Of a stretch of 64,000 nt of DNA, positions 3,292 to 43,338 are shown piece after piece (within the stretch, counting starts at the first letter, position 1; each line of letters starts with the position of its first letter). Position numbers and translations under genes: made by a program. The notes under the pieces are model-generated. The model saw only the letters and a program-made list of their open reading frames with translations. It did no database searches and was not told the DNA's origin. The stretch covers positions 1 to 64,000 of the forward strand of contig JADGPK010000007.1 in the NCBI GenBank assembly GCA_017882445.1, written 5' to 3'. Source of the stretch: Solirubrobacteraceae bacterium. GTDB lineage: Bacteria; Actinomycetota; Thermoleophilia; Solirubrobacterales; Solirubrobacteraceae.

Positions 3292-4251
3292 TCACGCCGA
3301 GAGCTGGTCGAACGTGCACTCGCTCGGAGCCTTGTCGTCGCGCCAGCGGCGCAGCTTGGCGCCGTGGCGGATCCTTCCGGCCGAGACGTGGTCGAAGTCG
3401 ATCTCCAGGACGAGCTCGGGGCGCAGCCCGATCCACTCGAGATCCTTGCCGGCGCTCCAGCGGCTCGGGTCCGCTGAGCCGCGCTCGCCGGACTCATACG
3501 GCGCCAGAAAGCCGACCAGCCGCTTCTTCTCGGCGGCTGTGAGGCCGGAGCAGTGCCCGACGACACGTAGCTCGGGGCCATCGTAGAGGCCGAGGATGAG
3601 CGCGCCGACGGTGTCGGCCTCCTTGCCGGGACGCCAGCCGACGATGACGGCGTCGATCGTGCGCACGCGCTTGACCTTGGCCATTCCCTTGCGTTCGCCC
3701 GGGCGGTAGGGCGCTGAGCGCTCCTTGGCGATCGCCCCCTCGGCGTGCTCGAGCCAGCGGGCGGCCTCCTTGGCGGTCGCGGCGGTCTCCATCAGCTCGA
3801 CGGGCGAGGAGGCGAAGCCGTCGCGCGCGATGAGGCTCTCCAGCGCGGCGCGCCGCTCGCCGAAGGGGAGCTCGAGCAGCGACTCGTCGTCACGGGCGAG
3901 CAGGTCGAAGGCGACGTAGACGGCGGGCGTCTCGGCGGCCAGGCGCTCGACCCGCGAGACGGCCGGATGGATGCGCTGGCCGAGCGCGTCGAAGTCCTCG
4001 CGGCCGTTCCCGTCGCGGACGACGATCTCGCCGTCGAGCACGTAGCGCCCCTCGGGCAGCGCGAGCTCGGGAAAGTAGCGCCCGAGCGGCTTGCCGTTGC
4101 GCGACTGCAGGAAGATCTCCTCACCGTCGACGAACGCCAGGCAGCGAAAGCCGTCGAGCTTGACCTCATAGGTGTAGTCATCCCCGATCGGCAGCTCTCT
4201 GCGCGAGAGCGCGAGCTGAGGCTTGATGGGTGGCTCGAGCGGAAGGGTCAC
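3292..4251 (-). CDS. ATP-dependent DNA ligase (LigD ligase-domain type, stand-alone)
   Basis: Seals DNA nicks with ATP; probably the ligase of a two-gene NHEJ system. Motif I is EVKLDGFR with the adenylated lysine at residue 31. Motif III-like YVAFDLL, motif IV-like EGAIAKE and the motif V lysines in KVKR are present, followed by a C-terminal OB fold. At 319 aa it matches only the ligase module of LigD: no polymerase or phosphoesterase domain is fused. Its ATG overlaps the stop of the polymerase gene by 4 bases, so the two are co-translated. No ku gene is in the window. Confidence 0.92.
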   Translation of the reverse strand: MTLPLEPPIKPQLALSRRELPIGDDYTYEVKLDGFRCLAFVDGEEIFLQSRNGKPLGRYFPELALPEGRYVLDGEIVVRDGNGREDFDALGQRIHPAVSRVERLAAETPAVYVAFDLLARDDESLLELPFGERRAALESLIARDGFASSPVELMETAATAKEAARWLEHAEGAIAKERSAPYRPGERKGMAKVKRVRTIDAVIVGWRPGKEADTVGALILGLYDGPELRVVGHCSGLTAAEKKRLVGFLAPYESGERGSADPSRWSAGKDLEWIGLRPELVLEIDFDHVSAGRIRHGAKLRRWRDDKAPSECTFDQLSA

Positions 4252-5276
4252 GATTTCTTCCCCTGCGCGGAACGCGCCCGGCTGGGCTGCACACGCGACG
4301 GCTCGTTCTTGCGCTTGCGGAAATGCGGCGGCCAGGGCGCGTCGCCGAGGCCGTCGCGCTCGTCGCGCGCCGCCAGCTCGAGCAGCCCGTCCAGACGGCC
4401 GGGGTGCTCGTCGATGCTCGCGGACGGATCGCCGCGCTCGCGCAGGCGCTCAGGGACTGTCTGCATCCGTAGATCGGCGGGCTCGACGTCGGGGACCTCA
4501 TCCCACTCCAGCGGACACGACACGCGAGCGTCGGGGACCGCTCTGACCGAATAGGCGGAGGCGACGGTGCGATCGCGGGCGTTCTGGTTGTAGTCGATGA
4601 ACACCCCTTTGCGCTCCTCCTTCCACCACCGGCTGGTCGCGCGGCCGGGCATCCGGCGCTCGACCTCGCGCGCGAGCGCGAGCGCGGCTCGGCGCACCTC
4701 TTCGAAGCTCTCGCGCGGCTCGATGCGCACATACACGTGCACGCCCCGCGAGCCGGAGGTCTTGGGAAAGCCGCGCAGGCCGTGCGCCTCGAGCACCTCG
4801 CGCACGCCCAGCGCGACCGCGCGGACCTCCGCGAAGGGAACGCCGGGGCTGGGGTCGAGGTCGACGCGGAGCTCGTCGGGATGGTCGAGGTCGTGGCGGC
4901 GGACGGGCCACGGGTTCCAGTCGATCACGCCGAGGTTGACGCCCCACACCAGGTGCGCTCCGTCGTTGGGGAGGAGCTCGCGGGCGTGACGCCCGCTGGG
5001 GAACGTAACGGTGGCGGTCTCCAGCCAATCGGGCGCGCTGTCGGGCACGCGCTTCTGGAAGAACGGCTCGCCCTGCACCCCGTCGACCCAGCGCTTCATC
5101 ACCGTGGGGCGGTCGCGCAGGTGGCGCACGACCGCCTGCTCGCACTCCAGGTAGTAGTCCACGAGATCCATCTTCGTCAGCCCGACCTCGGGGAAGAACA
5201 CCTTGCCAGGGTTGGACACGCGCACCTCACGGCCGGCGACCTCGATGATGATGTGCTGACCCTTCGGCGCGGCCAT
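4248..5276 (-). CDS. NHEJ DNA polymerase/primase (LigD PolDom)
   Basis: 342 aa archaeo-eukaryotic-primase-type polymerase that fills ends during non-homologous end joining. The start carries the family segment VSNPGKVFFPE. The catalytic metal-binding pair is in ELRVDLDPSPGVPF, and the nucleotide-binding stretch KTSGSRGVHVYVRI follows. In mycobacteria this domain is fused to phosphoesterase and ligase domains in LigD. Here it is a separate gene translationally coupled to the ligase. Only 10 bases separate its ATG from the ATG of the divergent gene at 5287. Confidence 0.92.
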   Translation of the reverse strand: MAAPKGQHIIIEVAGREVRVSNPGKVFFPEVGLTKMDLVDYYLECEQAVVRHLRDRPTVMKRWVDGVQGEPFFQKRVPDSAPDWLETATVTFPSGRHARELLPNDGAHLVWGVNLGVIDWNPWPVRRHDLDHPDELRVDLDPSPGVPFAEVRAVALGVREVLEAHGLRGFPKTSGSRGVHVYVRIEPRESFEEVRRAALALAREVERRMPGRATSRWWKEERKGVFIDYNQNARDRTVASAYSVRAVPDARVSCPLEWDEVPDVEPADLRMQTVPERLRERGDPSASIDEHPGRLDGLLELAARDERDGLGDAPWPPHFRKRKNEPSRVQPSRARSAQGKKS

Positions 5277-5286
5277 TGATGGAAGG

Positions 5287-5796
5287 ATGCCCGATCATGA
5301 GCTCGCGCAACCCACCCCCGCGCGATCGCCGTGCTCCGTCCGGCGGCCGGCGCCCGTGTTGATTCCGCGGCGGCTGCTCGTCGCGGCCGGCTCCTTCGGA
5401 CCGCGGCTGCCCGCCTCTGCGGTCGCGGGAGCGCTCGGCCGGGGCCTGGAGGCGGGCGGGCTGCCCGAGCCGGACCTGTGTGCGCTACCGGAGGTCGACG
5501 AGCACGGTGAGGAGGTGCGCGAGCTGCTCGACGCGCTGGACTTCGACGCGCGCATGCGCAGCGCACGCGCGGTGGTCGTGGCGGCGGCGGGCCTGCGCGA
5601 GTCGACGCTAGCGGGCAGCATGACGTTCGAGATCGCGACCAGGGCCCGCCAGTCGGGCGTGCCCGCCTATGCGGTGACCGACGAGAACCGGCTCGACGCA
5701 TTCGACGCGCGCATCCTGGACCTGCAGGTGATCCTCGAGGCGAGCAGCACGCGAGCGCTCGCGGCCGCGGGCAGGAGGCTGGCGAGCCTGGTGTGA
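5287..5796 (+). CDS. Glycerate-kinase-like C-terminal fragment protein
   Basis: 169 aa. The middle part (FDARMRSARAVVVAAAG, then RESTLAGSMTFEIATRA and a GVPAYAVT segment) resembles the region of glycerate kinases around the FDARLxGADLVxTGEGRLD signature. The key acidic GEGRLD residues are not conserved (AAGLRES here) and most of the kinase is absent. It is therefore either a shortened non-catalytic relative or an independent small protein. Translation may really begin at the in-frame GTG at 5356 (VLIPRRLLVAAGSFG). It lies immediately divergent from the NHEJ polymerase gene. Function not known. Confidence 0.5.
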   Translation: MPDHELAQPTPARSPCSVRRPAPVLIPRRLLVAAGSFGPRLPASAVAGALGRGLEAGGLPEPDLCALPEVDEHGEEVRELLDALDFDARMRSARAVVVAAAGLRESTLAGSMTFEIATRARQSGVPAYAVTDENRLDAFDARILDLQVILEASSTRALAAAGRRLASLV

Positions 5797-38366: not shown

Positions 38367-38394
38367 TTGACAAGCGCGTCCCACCTGAGAGGAT
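38367..38394 (+). promoter_or_regulatory. Promoter of the lysS-kamDE operon
   Basis: Consensus -35 TTGACA (38367-38372), 16-base spacer, -10 GAGGAT (38389-38394). The ATG of lysS lies 10 bases after the -10 box. The operon therefore starts here and is not simply read from mrp. Confidence 0.6.
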
Positions 38395-38404
38395 CGTCTT
38401 CGAA

Positions 38405-39955
38405 ATGCCAGTACAGGATCAACCGCAGGAGCAGGACGAGCGCCCGCCGGATACACCGGATGAGGCGCTTGACGGCGACGCCGACAACGGCGCGGCGGAA
38501 TTCGACGAACGCCGAGCCAAGATGGAACGGCTGCGGGCGCAGGGGATCGATCCCTATCCGCCCGTCAGCCTGCCGGACCGCACGCTGATCGCCCAGGTGC
38601 TCGCCGCGCACGATCCCGGCGCGCTGGAGGCCGGCGAGCACCGCGAGCTTCGCTACCAGATCGCCGGCCGCCTGATCTCCCGCAGGGTGCACGGCAAGAC
38701 CGCGTTTCTGGACGTGCGCGACCTGTCCGGCTCGATCCAGGTCGTCGTCCGCGTGGACGCGCTCGGGGAGGAGACCTACAACCGCGTCCTCGGCCTCGAC
38801 ATCGGAGACATCGTCGGCGTCGTGGGCTGCGTCTACGTCACCCAGCGGGGCCAGCTCGCACTCGCGGTGCTCGAGTGCACGTTGCTGACCAAGACCCTGC
38901 GTCCGCCGCCGGACAAGCACCACGGGCTCGGCGACACCGGCACGCGCTACCGCTACCGCGAGCTGGACCTGATGGCCAACGAGGAGACGCGCGAGCTGTT
39001 CGTGACCCGCTACAAGATCGTCTACGCGATCCGCGAATGGCTGAACGAACGCAACTTCGTCGAGGTCGAAACGCCGGCGCTGCAGTCGCTGGCGGGCGGT
39101 GCCGGGTCGCGGCCGTTCACGACCCACCACAACGCGCTCAACCGCGACCTCTACCTGCGCATCTCCGTCGAGCTGTTCCTCAACCGCTGCATCGTGGGCG
39201 GCATGGAGAACGTCTACGACATGGGCAAGGTGTTCCGCAACGAGGGCATCTCCCACAAGCACAGCCCCGAGTTCACGATCATCGAGTTCATGATGGCCTA
39301 CGCGGACTACAACGACGTGGCGACCGCGACCGAAGAGATGTTCCGCGACGTCGCCCAGCGGGTGCTCGGCCGGACCGTCATCAAACGGGGCGGTGAAGAC
39401 ATCGACCTGGCCAAGCCGTGGCGGCGGGTCACGATGCGCGAGATCATCCTCGAGCGTTTCGGCCTGGACTTCATGGAGTCGACCCGCGATGAGCTCGCCG
39501 AGGTGCTCGACGGGCCCCTCGACGAGGCGGCCACGTGGGCGGAGGTCGTGGCGGACATCTACTCGGAGAAAATCGAGCACACGATCAACCAGCCGACGCA
39601 CGTGTTCGACTTCCCGCTGGAGCCGTTCCCGATCACCAAGCGCCACGCCGTGCACCCCGAGCTCGGCGAGCATTTCGACGCTGTCATCGGCGGCATCGAG
39701 CTCGTCTCAGGCGACACAGAGCTCAACGACCCCGTCGACCAGTGGCAGCGCTTCGTCGACCAGCGTAAGCGGCGCTTGATCGACGACGAGGATGTACCCC
39801 ACCCCAACGACGAGGAGTACGCGCGGGCGATCGAGTACGGCTACTCCCCGACCGCCGGCGGCGGCATGGGGGTGGACCGCCTGGTGATGATCCTCACCGA
39901 ACGCGACACCCTGCGCGAGGTCATCCCCTTTCCGATCGTCAGGGACCTGCAATGA
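38405..39955 (+). CDS. lysS: Lysyl-tRNA synthetase, class II
   Basis: 516 aa. The N-terminal OB anticodon domain (YQIAGRLISRRVHGKTAFLDVRD) is followed by the class II core: motif 2 GKVFRNEGISHKHSPEFT and motif 3 GGGMGVDRLVM. These are complete, with the anticodon domain, so this is a real LysRS and not a PoxA/EpmA-type paralogue. The first 30 residues are acidic and non-conserved. Its stop overlaps the kamD start by 4 bases (ATGA), tying charging of lysine to a lysine-isomerising enzyme in one operon. Confidence 0.96.
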   Translation: MPVQDQPQEQDERPPDTPDEALDGDADNGAAEFDERRAKMERLRAQGIDPYPPVSLPDRTLIAQVLAAHDPGALEAGEHRELRYQIAGRLISRRVHGKTAFLDVRDLSGSIQVVVRVDALGEETYNRVLGLDIGDIVGVVGCVYVTQRGQLALAVLECTLLTKTLRPPPDKHHGLGDTGTRYRYRELDLMANEETRELFVTRYKIVYAIREWLNERNFVEVETPALQSLAGGAGSRPFTTHHNALNRDLYLRISVELFLNRCIVGGMENVYDMGKVFRNEGISHKHSPEFTIIEFMMAYADYNDVATATEEMFRDVAQRVLGRTVIKRGGEDIDLAKPWRRVTMREIILERFGLDFMESTRDELAEVLDGPLDEAATWAEVVADIYSEKIEHTINQPTHVFDFPLEPFPITKRHAVHPELGEHFDAVIGGIELVSGDTELNDPVDQWQRFVDQRKRRLIDDEDVPHPNDEEYARAIEYGYSPTAGGGMGVDRLVMILTERDTLREVIPFPIVRDLQ

Positions 39956-41508
39956 GCAAGCTGGACCTCGATCCGGGTGTGGTCGCTGCCTGCCGGCAGG
40001 CAGCCACGCGGATCGCCGAGCAGGTGGCCGAGCAGATCGCGGGCCGCACGACGTTGTCGGTCGAGCGCAGCGTCACGCGGCTGCTGGGCGTCGACGGCGC
40101 GAACGCCCTGGAGGTGCCGCTGCCGAACGTGCTCGTGGACCACGTCCACGAGCGGGGCGGCCTCGGCCGCGGGATCGCCTACTGGCTCGGCAACGCGATG
40201 ATCCAGACGACCAGCTCCCCCCAGCAGCTGGCCGAGGCGGTCAGCGCCGGAGAGCTCGATCTCCTCGCTCTGCAGGAGGCCGAGGAGCCCGCGATCCACG
40301 AGCGCGTCACGAGCGAGTGTGCGGCGCGCCTGCGCGAGATCGCACAGCGCTTCGACGAGCGCCGTGCGATGCGCGAGCGCCTGGGCGATGGGGCCGCACC
40401 GCTTCGCTACGTACTGACCGCGACCGGAGACGTGTACGAGGATGTGGTGCACGCCAGGGCCGTCGCCGAAGGGGGCGGGGACATCGTCGCGGTGATCCGC
40501 TCGACCGCCCAGAGCCTGCTCGACTACGTGCCCTACGGCCCCACCACCGAGGGCTACGGCGGCACGTTCGCCACGCAGGCGAACTTCCGCATCATGCGCG
40601 AGGCGATGGACGAGTGGTCAGAGCAGCACGGGCGCTACGTGCGTCTGTCGAGCTTCTGCTCGGGCCTGTGCATGTCGGAGATCGCCGCGATGGGCGCGTG
40701 GGAGGGCTTCGACAACATGGTCAACGACGCCCTCTACGGGATCCTCTATCGCGACATCAACATCGTCCGCGGCCTGATCGATCAGCGGATCTCGCGGATG
40801 ATCAACGGCTACTTCGGCGTGGTGATCAACACCGGCGAGGACAACTACCTGCGCACCGCCGACGCGATCGAGGCTGCGCCGTCGGTGACGGCCTCGCAGT
40901 TCATCAACCACCAGCTCGCCCTCGATTCGGGCGTCCCGGACTCCCAGATCGGGCTCGGCGACGCGTTCGAGATCGACGTGCCGGTGAAGAACGGCCTGCT
41001 GTACGAGTGGGCGCAGGCGCAGCTCACGCGCGAGCTGTTCCCCGACTGTCCCGTCAAGTACATGCCTCCAACCAGGCACATGGACGGCAACCTCTTCCGC
41101 ACGCATGCCGCCGACACGCTGTTCAACCTCGTCACGATCGCCACCGGCCAGGGCATCCAGACGATCGGGGTGCCGACAGAGGGGATCTTCACCCCCCACA
41201 TCCACGACCGCGTCCTCGGCCTGCAGAACGTGGGCTACGTCTTCAACGCCGCGCACGATTTGGGCGAGGAGATCGAGTTCAAGCGCGGCGGGATCATCCA
41301 GACCAGGGCGCAGCAGGTGCTCGCGGGAGCCCACGAGCTGCTCGAGCGGATCGCCCAGACTGGCCTCTTCGGAGCGATCGAGGACGCGACGTTCGGCGAC
41401 GTCAGCCGCAAGCAGGACGAGGGCCGCGGCATCGAGGGGATCGTCAGCACCGAGCCCGGATACTTCAACCCGTTCGTCGAGCTGATGCGCGAGGCCAGCT
41501 ATGCCTAG
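39952..41508 (+). CDS. kamD: Lysine 5,6-aminomutase alpha subunit
   Basis: 518 aa, the usual length. With KamE it moves the terminal amino group of D-lysine or L-beta-lysine from C6 to C5, using adenosylcobalamin and PLP. The conserved TIM-barrel blocks are present: LDYVPYGPTTEGYGGTFATQ, SSFCSGLCMSEIAAMGAWE, INTGEDNYLRTADA and PVKYMPPTRHMDGNLFRTHA. It is translationally coupled to lysS upstream and overlaps kamE by 8 bases downstream. No other lysine-fermentation genes (kdd, kce, kamA) are in the window. Confidence 0.93.
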   Translation: MSKLDLDPGVVAACRQAATRIAEQVAEQIAGRTTLSVERSVTRLLGVDGANALEVPLPNVLVDHVHERGGLGRGIAYWLGNAMIQTTSSPQQLAEAVSAGELDLLALQEAEEPAIHERVTSECAARLREIAQRFDERRAMRERLGDGAAPLRYVLTATGDVYEDVVHARAVAEGGGDIVAVIRSTAQSLLDYVPYGPTTEGYGGTFATQANFRIMREAMDEWSEQHGRYVRLSSFCSGLCMSEIAAMGAWEGFDNMVNDALYGILYRDINIVRGLIDQRISRMINGYFGVVINTGEDNYLRTADAIEAAPSVTASQFINHQLALDSGVPDSQIGLGDAFEIDVPVKNGLLYEWAQAQLTRELFPDCPVKYMPPTRHMDGNLFRTHAADTLFNLVTIATGQGIQTIGVPTEGIFTPHIHDRVLGLQNVGYVFNAAHDLGEEIEFKRGGIIQTRAQQVLAGAHELLERIAQTGLFGAIEDATFGDVSRKQDEGRGIEGIVSTEPGYFNPFVELMREASYA

Positions 41509-42259
41509 GGAGGTGGACCACAGGGCGGTGAGGCCGTACGCCGACCACCTCGGCGACGGCCTCGTGCAGATGAGCTTCACGCTGCCCGTTCCCTACTCGC
41601 TGGCCGCGCGCAAGGCGGCGCTCGAGCTGGCCGCGAAGATGGGCTTCCAGGAGCCGGAGGTGATCCACTACGAGCAGCTGACCGAGGGCTACACCTACTT
41701 CGTGATGTACGGGCGCTGCGTTCAGAGCGTCGACTTCGACGCGCTGCAGGGCGAGGGCTTCGACATCGAGTACATGACCGAGGACGAGATCGAGCGCTTC
41801 GCCGAAGAGCACCTCGGCCGCAACGTCGTGGTTGTCGGCGCGAGCACCGGCTCGGACACCCACAGCGTGGGGATCGACGCGATGCTCAACCTCAAGGGCT
41901 ACCACGGCCACCACGGCCTCGAGGGCTACCGCTTCTTCAAGACCTACAACCTCGGCAGCCAGGTGCCCAACAGCGTGCTGCTGGCCAAGGCGATCGAGGT
42001 CGGCGCGGACGCGATCCTCGTCTCCCAGACGGTCACCCAGCAGAACCTCCACGTGCAGAACTTGACCGAGCTCGTCGAGATGGTCGAGGCGGAGGGCCGC
42101 CGGGGGGACATGATCCTCGCGTGCGGAGGGCCGCGCGTATCCAACGAGCTGGCCAAGGAGCTCGGCTATGACGCGGGCTTCTCCAAGGGCACCGAACCCC
42201 ACCACCTCGCGACGTTCATCGTGCGGGAGCTCGCCGCGCGGGTAGCCGCGACCGGCTGA
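41501..42259 (+). CDS. kamE: Lysine 5,6-aminomutase beta (cobalamin-binding) subunit
   Basis: 252 aa. The base-off B12 motif DTHSVG (DxHxxG) is in GASTGSDTHSVGIDAML, and the Rossmann fold follows. The lysine in the following NLKGY segment is the likely PLP-attachment residue by position. Further conserved blocks: TYNLGSQVPN, LVSQTVTQQN and LACGGPRVSNELAKELGYDAG. It forms the active enzyme with KamD. The gene is followed after 8 bases by the P-loop gene. Confidence 0.94.
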   Translation: MPREVDHRAVRPYADHLGDGLVQMSFTLPVPYSLAARKAALELAAKMGFQEPEVIHYEQLTEGYTYFVMYGRCVQSVDFDALQGEGFDIEYMTEDEIERFAEEHLGRNVVVVGASTGSDTHSVGIDAMLNLKGYHGHHGLEGYRFFKTYNLGSQVPNSVLLAKAIEVGADAILVSQTVTQQNLHVQNLTELVEMVEAEGRRGDMILACGGPRVSNELAKELGYDAGFSKGTEPHHLATFIVRELAARVAATG

Positions 42260-42267
42260 ACTTCTCG

Positions 42268-43338
42268 GTGCTCAGCGATCTGACCGCCTCGGCCGAGCGA
42301 CTCGCGCTGGTCGGGCTCGCCAAGAACACGGGCAAGACCGAGGCGCTCGCTGCGCTGCTGCGCGAGCTGCAAGCCAACGGCCGGTGCGTGGGGGTGACCT
42401 CGGTGGGGCGCGACGGCGAGGAGCGCGACGTGATCGACTTCCGCATCGAGAAGCCACGCGTGGTCCTGCCCGCGGGGAGCCTCGTGGCGACCACCGACGA
42501 GCTGCTGAGCGCGAGCGGCCTCCCCCACGTGCTGCTCGAGCAGACCGACGTGCGCACCCCGCTCGGGCGGGTGCTGATCGCGCGACTGCGGGGTCCCGGC
42601 GCGGTCGAGGTCGCGGGTCCGAGCGGCGCCGAGCAGGTGCGCGCGGTGAGCGACGCGATGCTCTCCCACGGCGCCGAGCAGGTGCTGATCGACGGCGCGA
42701 TCGACCGGCGCGCCGCATCCTCGCCGGACGTGGCCGACGGCCTCGTGATGTCGACCGGAGCGGTGCTCGGCGAAGACATCGCGGAGGTCGTCTCGCGGAC
42801 CCGCGACGCGGTCGAGCTCGTACGGCTTCAGACCGTCGAGGAGTCCACGGAGACCGGCCTGCGCCTGCGCATGCTCGCCGCACAGGACGGGGGCCGGGCC
42901 AACCTGCTCGTGGGCTCCGAGCAGGAGCCAGTGACGCTGCCGCCGCGCTTTGCCCTCTCCAGCGACGCCACCCAGATCGCCGAGGTGCTGGACGCGAGCC
43001 CGACGGCACAGTGGCTGATTCTCGCTGGGGCGCTGCCTGACCGCCTCCTGCGCGAGCTCTTAGAGGCCACCCGGCGGCGCCGACGCGAGCTCACGCTCGT
43101 CGTGGCCGATCCCACCAGGGTCTTCCTGGCCGAGCGGGGGATCGACTGGTACCGTCGCCAGGGCATCGCGGTGCAGTCCCTGCGCCCGATCGAGCTGCTC
43201 GCGCTGACGGTCAACCCGCTGGCGCCGCAGTCACATCGCTTCGACTCCGCCCGGCTGCGGGCACTGCTGGCCGAGGCGATCCCCGACGTTCCGATCTTCG
43301 ACGTGCTGCACCCGGAGTATCAGGGCTCACGGCCCTAG
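42268..43338 (+). CDS. P-loop protein co-transcribed with lysine 5,6-aminomutase
   Basis: 356 aa from GTG 42268. Walker A is GLAKNTGKTEALAALL close to the N-terminus, followed by CVGVTSVGRDGE, LLEQTDVRTPLGRVL and a Walker-B-like VLIDGAIDRRAA. The C-terminal half (TLVVADPTRVFLAERGIDWYRRQG, then LLALTVNPLAPQSHRF) is not a domain I can name. B12 mutases lose cofactor and need ATP-driven reactivases; the position suggests such a chaperone, but it is not visibly like known KamB/KamC reactivases. Function therefore unproven. Confidence 0.75.
   Translation: MLSDLTASAERLALVGLAKNTGKTEALAALLRELQANGRCVGVTSVGRDGEERDVIDFRIEKPRVVLPAGSLVATTDELLSASGLPHVLLEQTDVRTPLGRVLIARLRGPGAVEVAGPSGAEQVRAVSDAMLSHGAEQVLIDGAIDRRAASSPDVADGLVMSTGAVLGEDIAEVVSRTRDAVELVRLQTVEESTETGLRLRMLAAQDGGRANLLVGSEQEPVTLPPRFALSSDATQIAEVLDASPTAQWLILAGALPDRLLRELLEATRRRRRELTLVVADPTRVFLAERGIDWYRRQGIAVQSLRPIELLALTVNPLAPQSHRFDSARLRALLAEAIPDVPIFDVLHPEYQGSRP

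Follow-up and report, generated by a model that had tools for sequence, protein, structure and literature searches.

Why should a gene for a lysyl-tRNA synthetase (LysRS) overlap the genes of a B12-dependent lysine aminomutase? The question is raised by a four-gene operon in a 64,000-nucleotide stretch of DNA from a Solirubrobacteraceae bacterium (assembly GCA_017882445.1, contig JADGPK010000007.1, positions 1 to 64,000; hereafter the window), in which the synthetase gene, here termed lysS-K, is followed by kamD and kamE, encoding the two subunits of lysine 5,6-aminomutase, and by kamB, encoding a Walker-A protein. The window genome (G000) comprises 3.27 Mb in 234 contigs and is 95% complete. 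The reading favored here, at a probability of roughly 0.55, is that lysine is isomerized by KamDE, probably to 2,5-diaminohexanoate, and that the isomer would be activated by LysS-K, a paralog apart from the housekeeping LysRS.

The first part of the answer is that LysS-K is not the housekeeping synthetase. In a search of 26 genomes with the window LysRS, an ordinary LysRS was found in the window genome as well (contig C4, positions 4077-5519), where it lies between greA-like and clpC-like genes and is 49% identical to LysS-K. Ordinary-type LysRS (45-50% identity to the window LysRS) is present in 22 of the 24 genomes of the genus and LysS-K in 19, one of these (G017) being an outlier; the two types occur together in 18 of the 19. 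G015 carries LysS-K and an N-terminal fragment, with no ordinary LysRS at E 1e-60, and G005 yielded no LysRS of either type. When a LysS-K profile was run against 399 genomes of the class, matches above 870 bits among those listed fell at 17 places in 14 genomes, all within the genus. A housekeeping role for LysS-K was rejected on account of the second LysRS at C4, and its amino-acid pocket is changed as well (M, S, and D). The original prediction had suggested that the operon links lysine supply with lysine isomerization; this presumed a housekeeping lysS and is not supported, the gene being a second paralog with an altered pocket.

The alterations are systematic. In the numbering of Escherichia coli LysU (1e1o), Y280, N424, and F426 are invariant in all nine ordinary LysRS compared, LysU among them. 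Among 21 LysS-K proteins (the set without the outlier of G017), position 280 is M in 14, all KamDE-linked, and L in the seven of the aminotransferase type described below, while S424 and D426 are each found in 21/21; the corresponding residues of the window protein are M296, S435, and D437. A238 is replaced by S and K244 by N in every one of the 21, and the catalytic positions E240, R262, E264, E278, E428, and R480 are all kept. LysS-K also retains the oligonucleotide-binding (OB)-fold anticodon domain (PF01336 at residues 85-161), in which R77, F84, and Q95 are conserved in 22 of 22 proteins, and E134 is mostly Q among the 21, remaining E in three and becoming G in one. The outlier itself has E280, S424, S426, and K244.

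The coupling to the aminomutase is conserved. KamD was found in 13 of 101 related genomes at 15 places, namely in 12 of the 24 genus genomes (G000 included) and in G052 of the same family. At all 14 genus places lysS-K adjoins kamDE, in three gene orders: lysS-kamD-kamE-kamB at 11, lysS-kamB-kamD-kamE at one (G016), and kamD-kamE-(kamB)-lysS at two second copies, with kamB in G003 and without it in G019. The neighborhood that had been singled out in the window thus recurs in its relatives. Nonsynonymous to synonymous polymorphism ratios (pN/pS) from 11 comparisons per gene, covering 11 of the 13 other genus loci (two second copies left out), were 0.18-0.37 for lysS-K, 0.19-0.42 for kamD, 0.16-0.47 for kamE, and 0.40-0.61 for kamB, and purifying selection therefore acts on all four operon genes. 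That the association is more than chance is indicated by the unbroken adjacency (14 of 14 loci) together with the pN/pS values of 0.16-0.61. In G003, two full lysS-K/kamDE/kamB clusters of differing order lie tail to tail in opposite orientation on one contig (L021, 4904-14830).

In some genomes where kamD is missing, the partner of LysS-K is exchanged. Six genus genomes that lack kamD (G007, G008, G010, G014, G020, and G022) have, next after lysS-K, a gene for a diaminobutyrate-family aminotransferase of class III; two of these proteins were scanned and scored 403 and 404 bits against TIGR00709 (cut-off 401.6). In four of these six genomes the lysS-K locus is the same one, next to mrp. A tree of 47 LysRS proteins placed the 14 KamDE-linked LysS-K in one clade (support 96/87) and seven aminotransferase-type LysS-K in a separate clade (100/97), the latter count including one protein (L164) that has no adjoining aminotransferase. 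The partner swap is accompanied by changes at position 280 and its neighbors 279, 234, and 473, which argues that LysS-K may be tuned to the product of its partner. The outlier LysS-K of G017 (contig C30; L169, 6284-10928) stands beside a VioC/clavaminate-synthase-like oxygenase that scores below the cut-offs of those families and is possibly a third kind of LysS-K partner.

KamD, KamE, and KamB each belong to a known family (Table 1). KamD, a single-copy protein in the window genome, aligns over residues 2-513 with the alpha chains of solved 5,6-aminomutases (8t0v, 9q1a, and 1xrs), and KamE aligns along its length with the solved D-lysine 5,6-aminomutase 9q1a, with conservation of DTHSVG (the B12 motif DxHxxG) and of a lysine 11 residues past the His of that motif. 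We take these residues to have the roles of their counterparts, the conserved lysine presumably being the pyridoxal phosphate lysine. The Walker-A protein matched no Pfam family and had been put forward as a new type of B12-mutase reactivase; that proposal was rejected, since the protein exceeds the cut-off of an NCBIfam family already named KamB. The sole unusual point of this predicted reactivase is that it would work without detectable KamC, for which none of 13 genomes gave a match, 12 of 14 controls matching below the cut-off through MutS kin.

Table 1. Features of the lysS-K operon, in window coordinates.
Feature	Description	Position	Strand	Basis
Promoter-like element	TTGACA-16-GAGGAT	38367..38394	+	TTGACA 38367-38372, GAGGAT 38389-38394; lysS-K ATG 11 bases on
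lysS-K	Class II lysyl-tRNA synthetase paralog, 516 aa, OB-fold anticodon domain, remodeled amino-acid pocket	38405..39955	+	TIGR00499 483 bits (cut-off 428); alignment with LysU
kamD	Lysine 5,6-aminomutase alpha subunit, 518 aa	39952..41508	+	PF09043 733 bits; NF052384 786 bits (cut-off 600)
kamE	Lysine 5,6-aminomutase beta subunit, 252 aa	41501..42259	+	NF052385 350 bits (cut-off 280)
kamB	Walker-A protein, 356 aa, NCBIfam 'lysine 5,6-aminomutase reactivase subunit'	42268..43338	+	NF052386 301 bits (cut-off 210)

The architecture of the operon proved to be as originally described. The coordinates bear out the overlaps of four bases between lysS-K and kamD and of eight between kamD and kamE; the Walker-A frame opens with a GTG eight bases past the kamE stop and contains the P-loop GLAKNTGKT; and the promoter-like element ahead of lysS-K was located in the sequence as claimed. 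In the upstream regions of nine of the 14 genus kamD loci, which were aligned, CGCTTGACAA and AGGATCGT of this element are unchanged in 9/9, and the start codon follows about 10 to 15 bases downstream. A scan for consensus promoters did not call the element (0 found, 0.4 expected) because GAGGAT shares just three of six positions with TATAAT; the identity of both parts throughout the aligned regions nevertheless argues that it is real. The distance from element to ATG suggests a nearly leaderless lysS-K transcript.

Lysine 5,6-aminomutase is known from lysine fermentation clusters (kamABCDE-kdd-kce-kal, e.g., L048, L050, and L052), and the operon has homologous KamD, KamE, and KamB. In the fermenter locus L048, kamA, kdd, kamB, and kamC all lie beside kamD, whereas in the window a LysRS paralog is found instead of kamA, kdd, and kamC. 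The reported lack of kamA, kdd, and kce holds for the neighborhood, and that of kamA and kdd extends to the genome as searched: no KamA exceeded the cut-off in five genomes, where three matches were weak, against 8 of 14 controls that did exceed it, and KDD had no match in G000, with weak partial matches (31% identity) in two of 11 genomes. No complete kamA/kdd/kce cluster was found elsewhere in G000 that might use these subunits. G000 has one BKACE gene, a doubtful KCE candidate (contig C133; L017, 9655-10566), whose nearest family is KCE, at 240 bits against the KCE cut-off of 382; it lies on another contig amid acyl-CoA dehydrogenase, carboxylase, and CoA-transferase-like genes (neighbors named by eye). 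Fermentation or complete lysine breakdown was accordingly rejected, as KamA and KamC did not exceed their cut-offs in the genomes searched and KDD had no match in G000. The alternative offered at the outset, a non-fermentative use comparable to beta-lysine on elongation factor P (EF-P), pointed in the right direction.

The company kept by related aminomutases is also informative. In a KamD tree that took in eight of the 14 genus proteins, the window KamD falls in a 12-row clade (100/100). This clade also takes in the KamD of Micromonospora matsumotoense, that of Actinomycetota SZAS-16, that of G052, and a Rhodospirillaceae row on a long branch; it is separate from 11 other actinobacterial rows (one clade), from the Bacillota rows, and from the fermentation clusters. 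An amino-acid-activating enzyme lies beside KamDE at 17 of 18 loci of this clade, being LysS-K at 14, an ArgRS-like protein at two (G052 and SZAS-16), and a nonribosomal peptide synthetase (NRPS) at one, the Micromonospora locus, which was counted from its AMP-binding, PP-binding, and condensation domains alone. The order in SZAS-16 is ArgRS-like-kamD-kamE-kamB, and in G052 the ArgRS-like gene is divergent from kamD-kamE-kamB. Both LysS-K and an ArgRS-like protein are present at two of the 14 genus loci, the second copies of G003 and G019, where ArgRS-like, methyltransferase-like, LysA-like, and DapD-like genes lie divergently beside the LysS-K cluster. In M. matsumotoense (L046, 9630-19522), MbtH-kamD-kamE-kamB lies within an NRPS cluster with a P450, which may build a lysine isomer into its peptide. 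Among plasmid records KamD was found in two fermenters only, each below 60% identity.

The available text of PMC3958899 describes 5,6-aminomutase as converting D-lysine to 2,5-diaminohexanoate and L-beta-lysine to 3,5-diaminohexanoate. In the proposed pathway, KamD and KamE, maintained in an active state by the ATPase KamB, would act on lysine and shift its C6 amino group to C5. Unmodified lysine is the probable substrate (the known enzyme uses D-lysine) and 2,5-diaminohexanoate, or delta-methyl-ornithine, the probable product, which we infer to be likelier than 3,5-diaminohexanoate because no lysine 2,3-aminomutase (KamA) was found. LysS-K would turn this product into an adenylate and hand it to an acceptor, most simply tRNA-Lys or else another molecule; tRNA-Lys is a possible acceptor since LysS-K retains its anticodon domain and the search for further tRNAs of the Lys type found none. 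In sister genomes LysS-K is coupled to the aminotransferase instead, and the paralogs would thus form a family of activating enzymes, each matched to the diamino acid that its partner supplies. A wider version of this proposal is tentative and falls slightly short of an even bet: that Solirubrobacterales possess a LysRS paralog family with pockets retuned to diamino acids from swappable partners (2,5-diaminohexanoate via the B12 aminomutase, diaminobutyrate via the aminotransferase), that its members either charge tRNA-Lys with an amino acid that the genetic code does not include or make lactams, and that elsewhere in the KamDE clade the mutase supplies ArgRS-like ligases and NRPSs, the B12 enzyme having thus moved from fermentation to the building of amino acids.

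Several points weigh against activation of a lysine isomer by LysS-K. LysU residues 280, 424, and 426 are presumably contacts of the lysine side chain, as in LysU structures, a literature search having yielded no confirmation. The AlphaFold model of LysS-K was unusable (mean pLDDT 52.6, 13 related rows). G000 has no extra tRNA-Lys, only one TTT and one CTT gene, and no gene for a common acceptor was found; the MprF C-terminal domain occurs in G000 as a partial copy and in none of 13 other genomes, and lipid aminoacylation by MprF was rejected as a shared acceptor route. At the Rhodospirillaceae locus of the KamD clade (L049), no LysS-K, ArgRS-like, or KamB match was obtained, nor any NRPS. Activated delta-amino acids moreover tend to cyclize, as described for ornithine, and for diaminobutyrate, in the available part of PMC8001834, which disfavors a long-lived aminoacyl-tRNA. 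No orphan tRNA was recognized among 45 tRNA-like matches in this 234-contig, 95% complete genome, one weak match (C52) lacking an ARAGORN call. The MprF copy itself (L220; contig C122, 2675-3130) is a half-length domain over the cut-off, either a genuine gene of this genome or a contaminant of the bin. One tRNA gene of G000, on the minus strand (L191, 1501-1596; contig C104, 101841-101936), has a 25-base D-loop insert holding a hairpin and an anticodon read as UUC (Glu), otherwise unseen among the called tRNAs.

The tendency to cyclize is also the basis of a serious, if unlikely, alternative, in which LysS-K is a lactam-forming synthetase. The C5 amine moved by KamDE would close a six-membered ring (3-amino-6-methylpiperidin-2-one), and diaminobutyrate from the aminotransferase would close a five-membered one. 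Asp426 is a possible base, and the lactam would be released as a small metabolite, tRNA not being the acceptor. The available part of PMC8001834 describes LysRS2 as making Orn-AMP, which cyclizes, with six-membered closure favored about 500:1 over the seven-membered closure of lysine, and diaminobutyrate as cyclizing too. Delta- and gamma-amino acids thus cyclize on activation, and release of a lactam would explain why the amine is shifted to C5. The plausible products of both partner enzymes are amino acids that close small rings, and F426D stands beside the kept E428. A pure cyclase, however, would have no need of the anticodon domain or its conserved R77, F84, and Q95, and no gene by which a lactam might be used or exported was seen in the operon. 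It is more improbable again that LysS-K is a selective, self-protecting LysRS that charges lysine while shutting out the isomer or a toxic metabolite derived from it. An altered target copy beside analogue-making genes is a known pattern, and a related KamDE is found in the NRPS cluster of M. matsumotoense, but the changed residues, presumably of the lysine side-chain site, are replaced non-conservatively in 21/21 proteins, a resistant copy would give no protection in the 18 of 19 genomes where the ordinary LysRS coexists with it, and LysS-K also stands beside an aminotransferase where KamDE is lacking.

KamDE and the aminotransferase might instead be alternative first steps of lysine breakdown, with lysS-K a lysine sensor or passenger. 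In favor of this, either partner can have a diamino acid's omega-amine as its target, and G000 has the single BKACE gene near the KCE family. The KamA and KDD searches, and the low score and remote, acyl-CoA-rich setting of the BKACE gene, make this very unlikely, and pocket changes that track the partner would be left unexplained. A route like that of EpmA and EpmB, in which LysS-K would put the isomer on EF-P or another protein, shares with the operon the logic of pairing a LysRS paralog with an aminomutase that acts on lysine (available part of PMC2821294); it is nonetheless to be regarded as still less probable, for EpmA has no anticodon domain according to the same text whereas LysS-K has one, together with its pocket substitutions, and LysS-K scores 172 bits against the EpmA cut-off of 287.

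By analogy, then, the system appears to work like EpmA/EpmB, with a paralog proposed to activate the isomer, yet it is no member of that system; EpmB is a radical-SAM 2,3-aminomutase and the enzyme here an unrelated B12 5,6-aminomutase. LysS-K shares its whole-length fold, OB domain, and catalytic residues with bacterial class II LysRS (LysS/LysU) but differs in the replacement of Y280, N424, and F426 and in being a second copy beside an ordinary gene. PylS with PylBCD, the pyrrolysine system, likewise sets a dedicated class II synthetase beside the makers of its lysine-derived amino acid; here, in contrast, no special tRNA was found, the synthetase derives from LysRS, and the chemistry is other. 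In the openly licensed literature, no previous description was found of an aminomutase paired with a LysRS paralog, of a pocket-changed LysRS family, or of KamDE in natural-product clusters. Should activation of the isomer by LysS-K hold, one cell would contain, beside its ordinary LysRS, a synthetase naturally specific for an isomer of lysine, with natural variants in which pocket and partner differ together, and a B12 aminomutase known from fermentation would serve amino-acid activation. The question of why ornithine-like amino acids are outside the genetic code would become directly testable with enzymes evolved for them, and such enzymes would offer starting points for genetic-code work.

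Two further groups of synthetase-like genes were encountered. Twelve genomes carry a second pocket-changed LysRS paralog family in the order (L235-L246, e.g., L241, 1429-2970), with F280, G or S at 424 and 426, and D428 in 12/12; its members lie mostly beside lgt- and prmC-like genes (named by eye), and several of the genomes have a second, lower-scoring LysRS among the matches listed. At L121-L130 (e.g., L122, 9143-14364), ArgRS-like proteins occur in a repeated group with aminodeoxychorismate-synthase-like, chorismate-mutase-like, and P450 genes (again named by eye), which from its gene content looks like an undescribed natural-product cluster.

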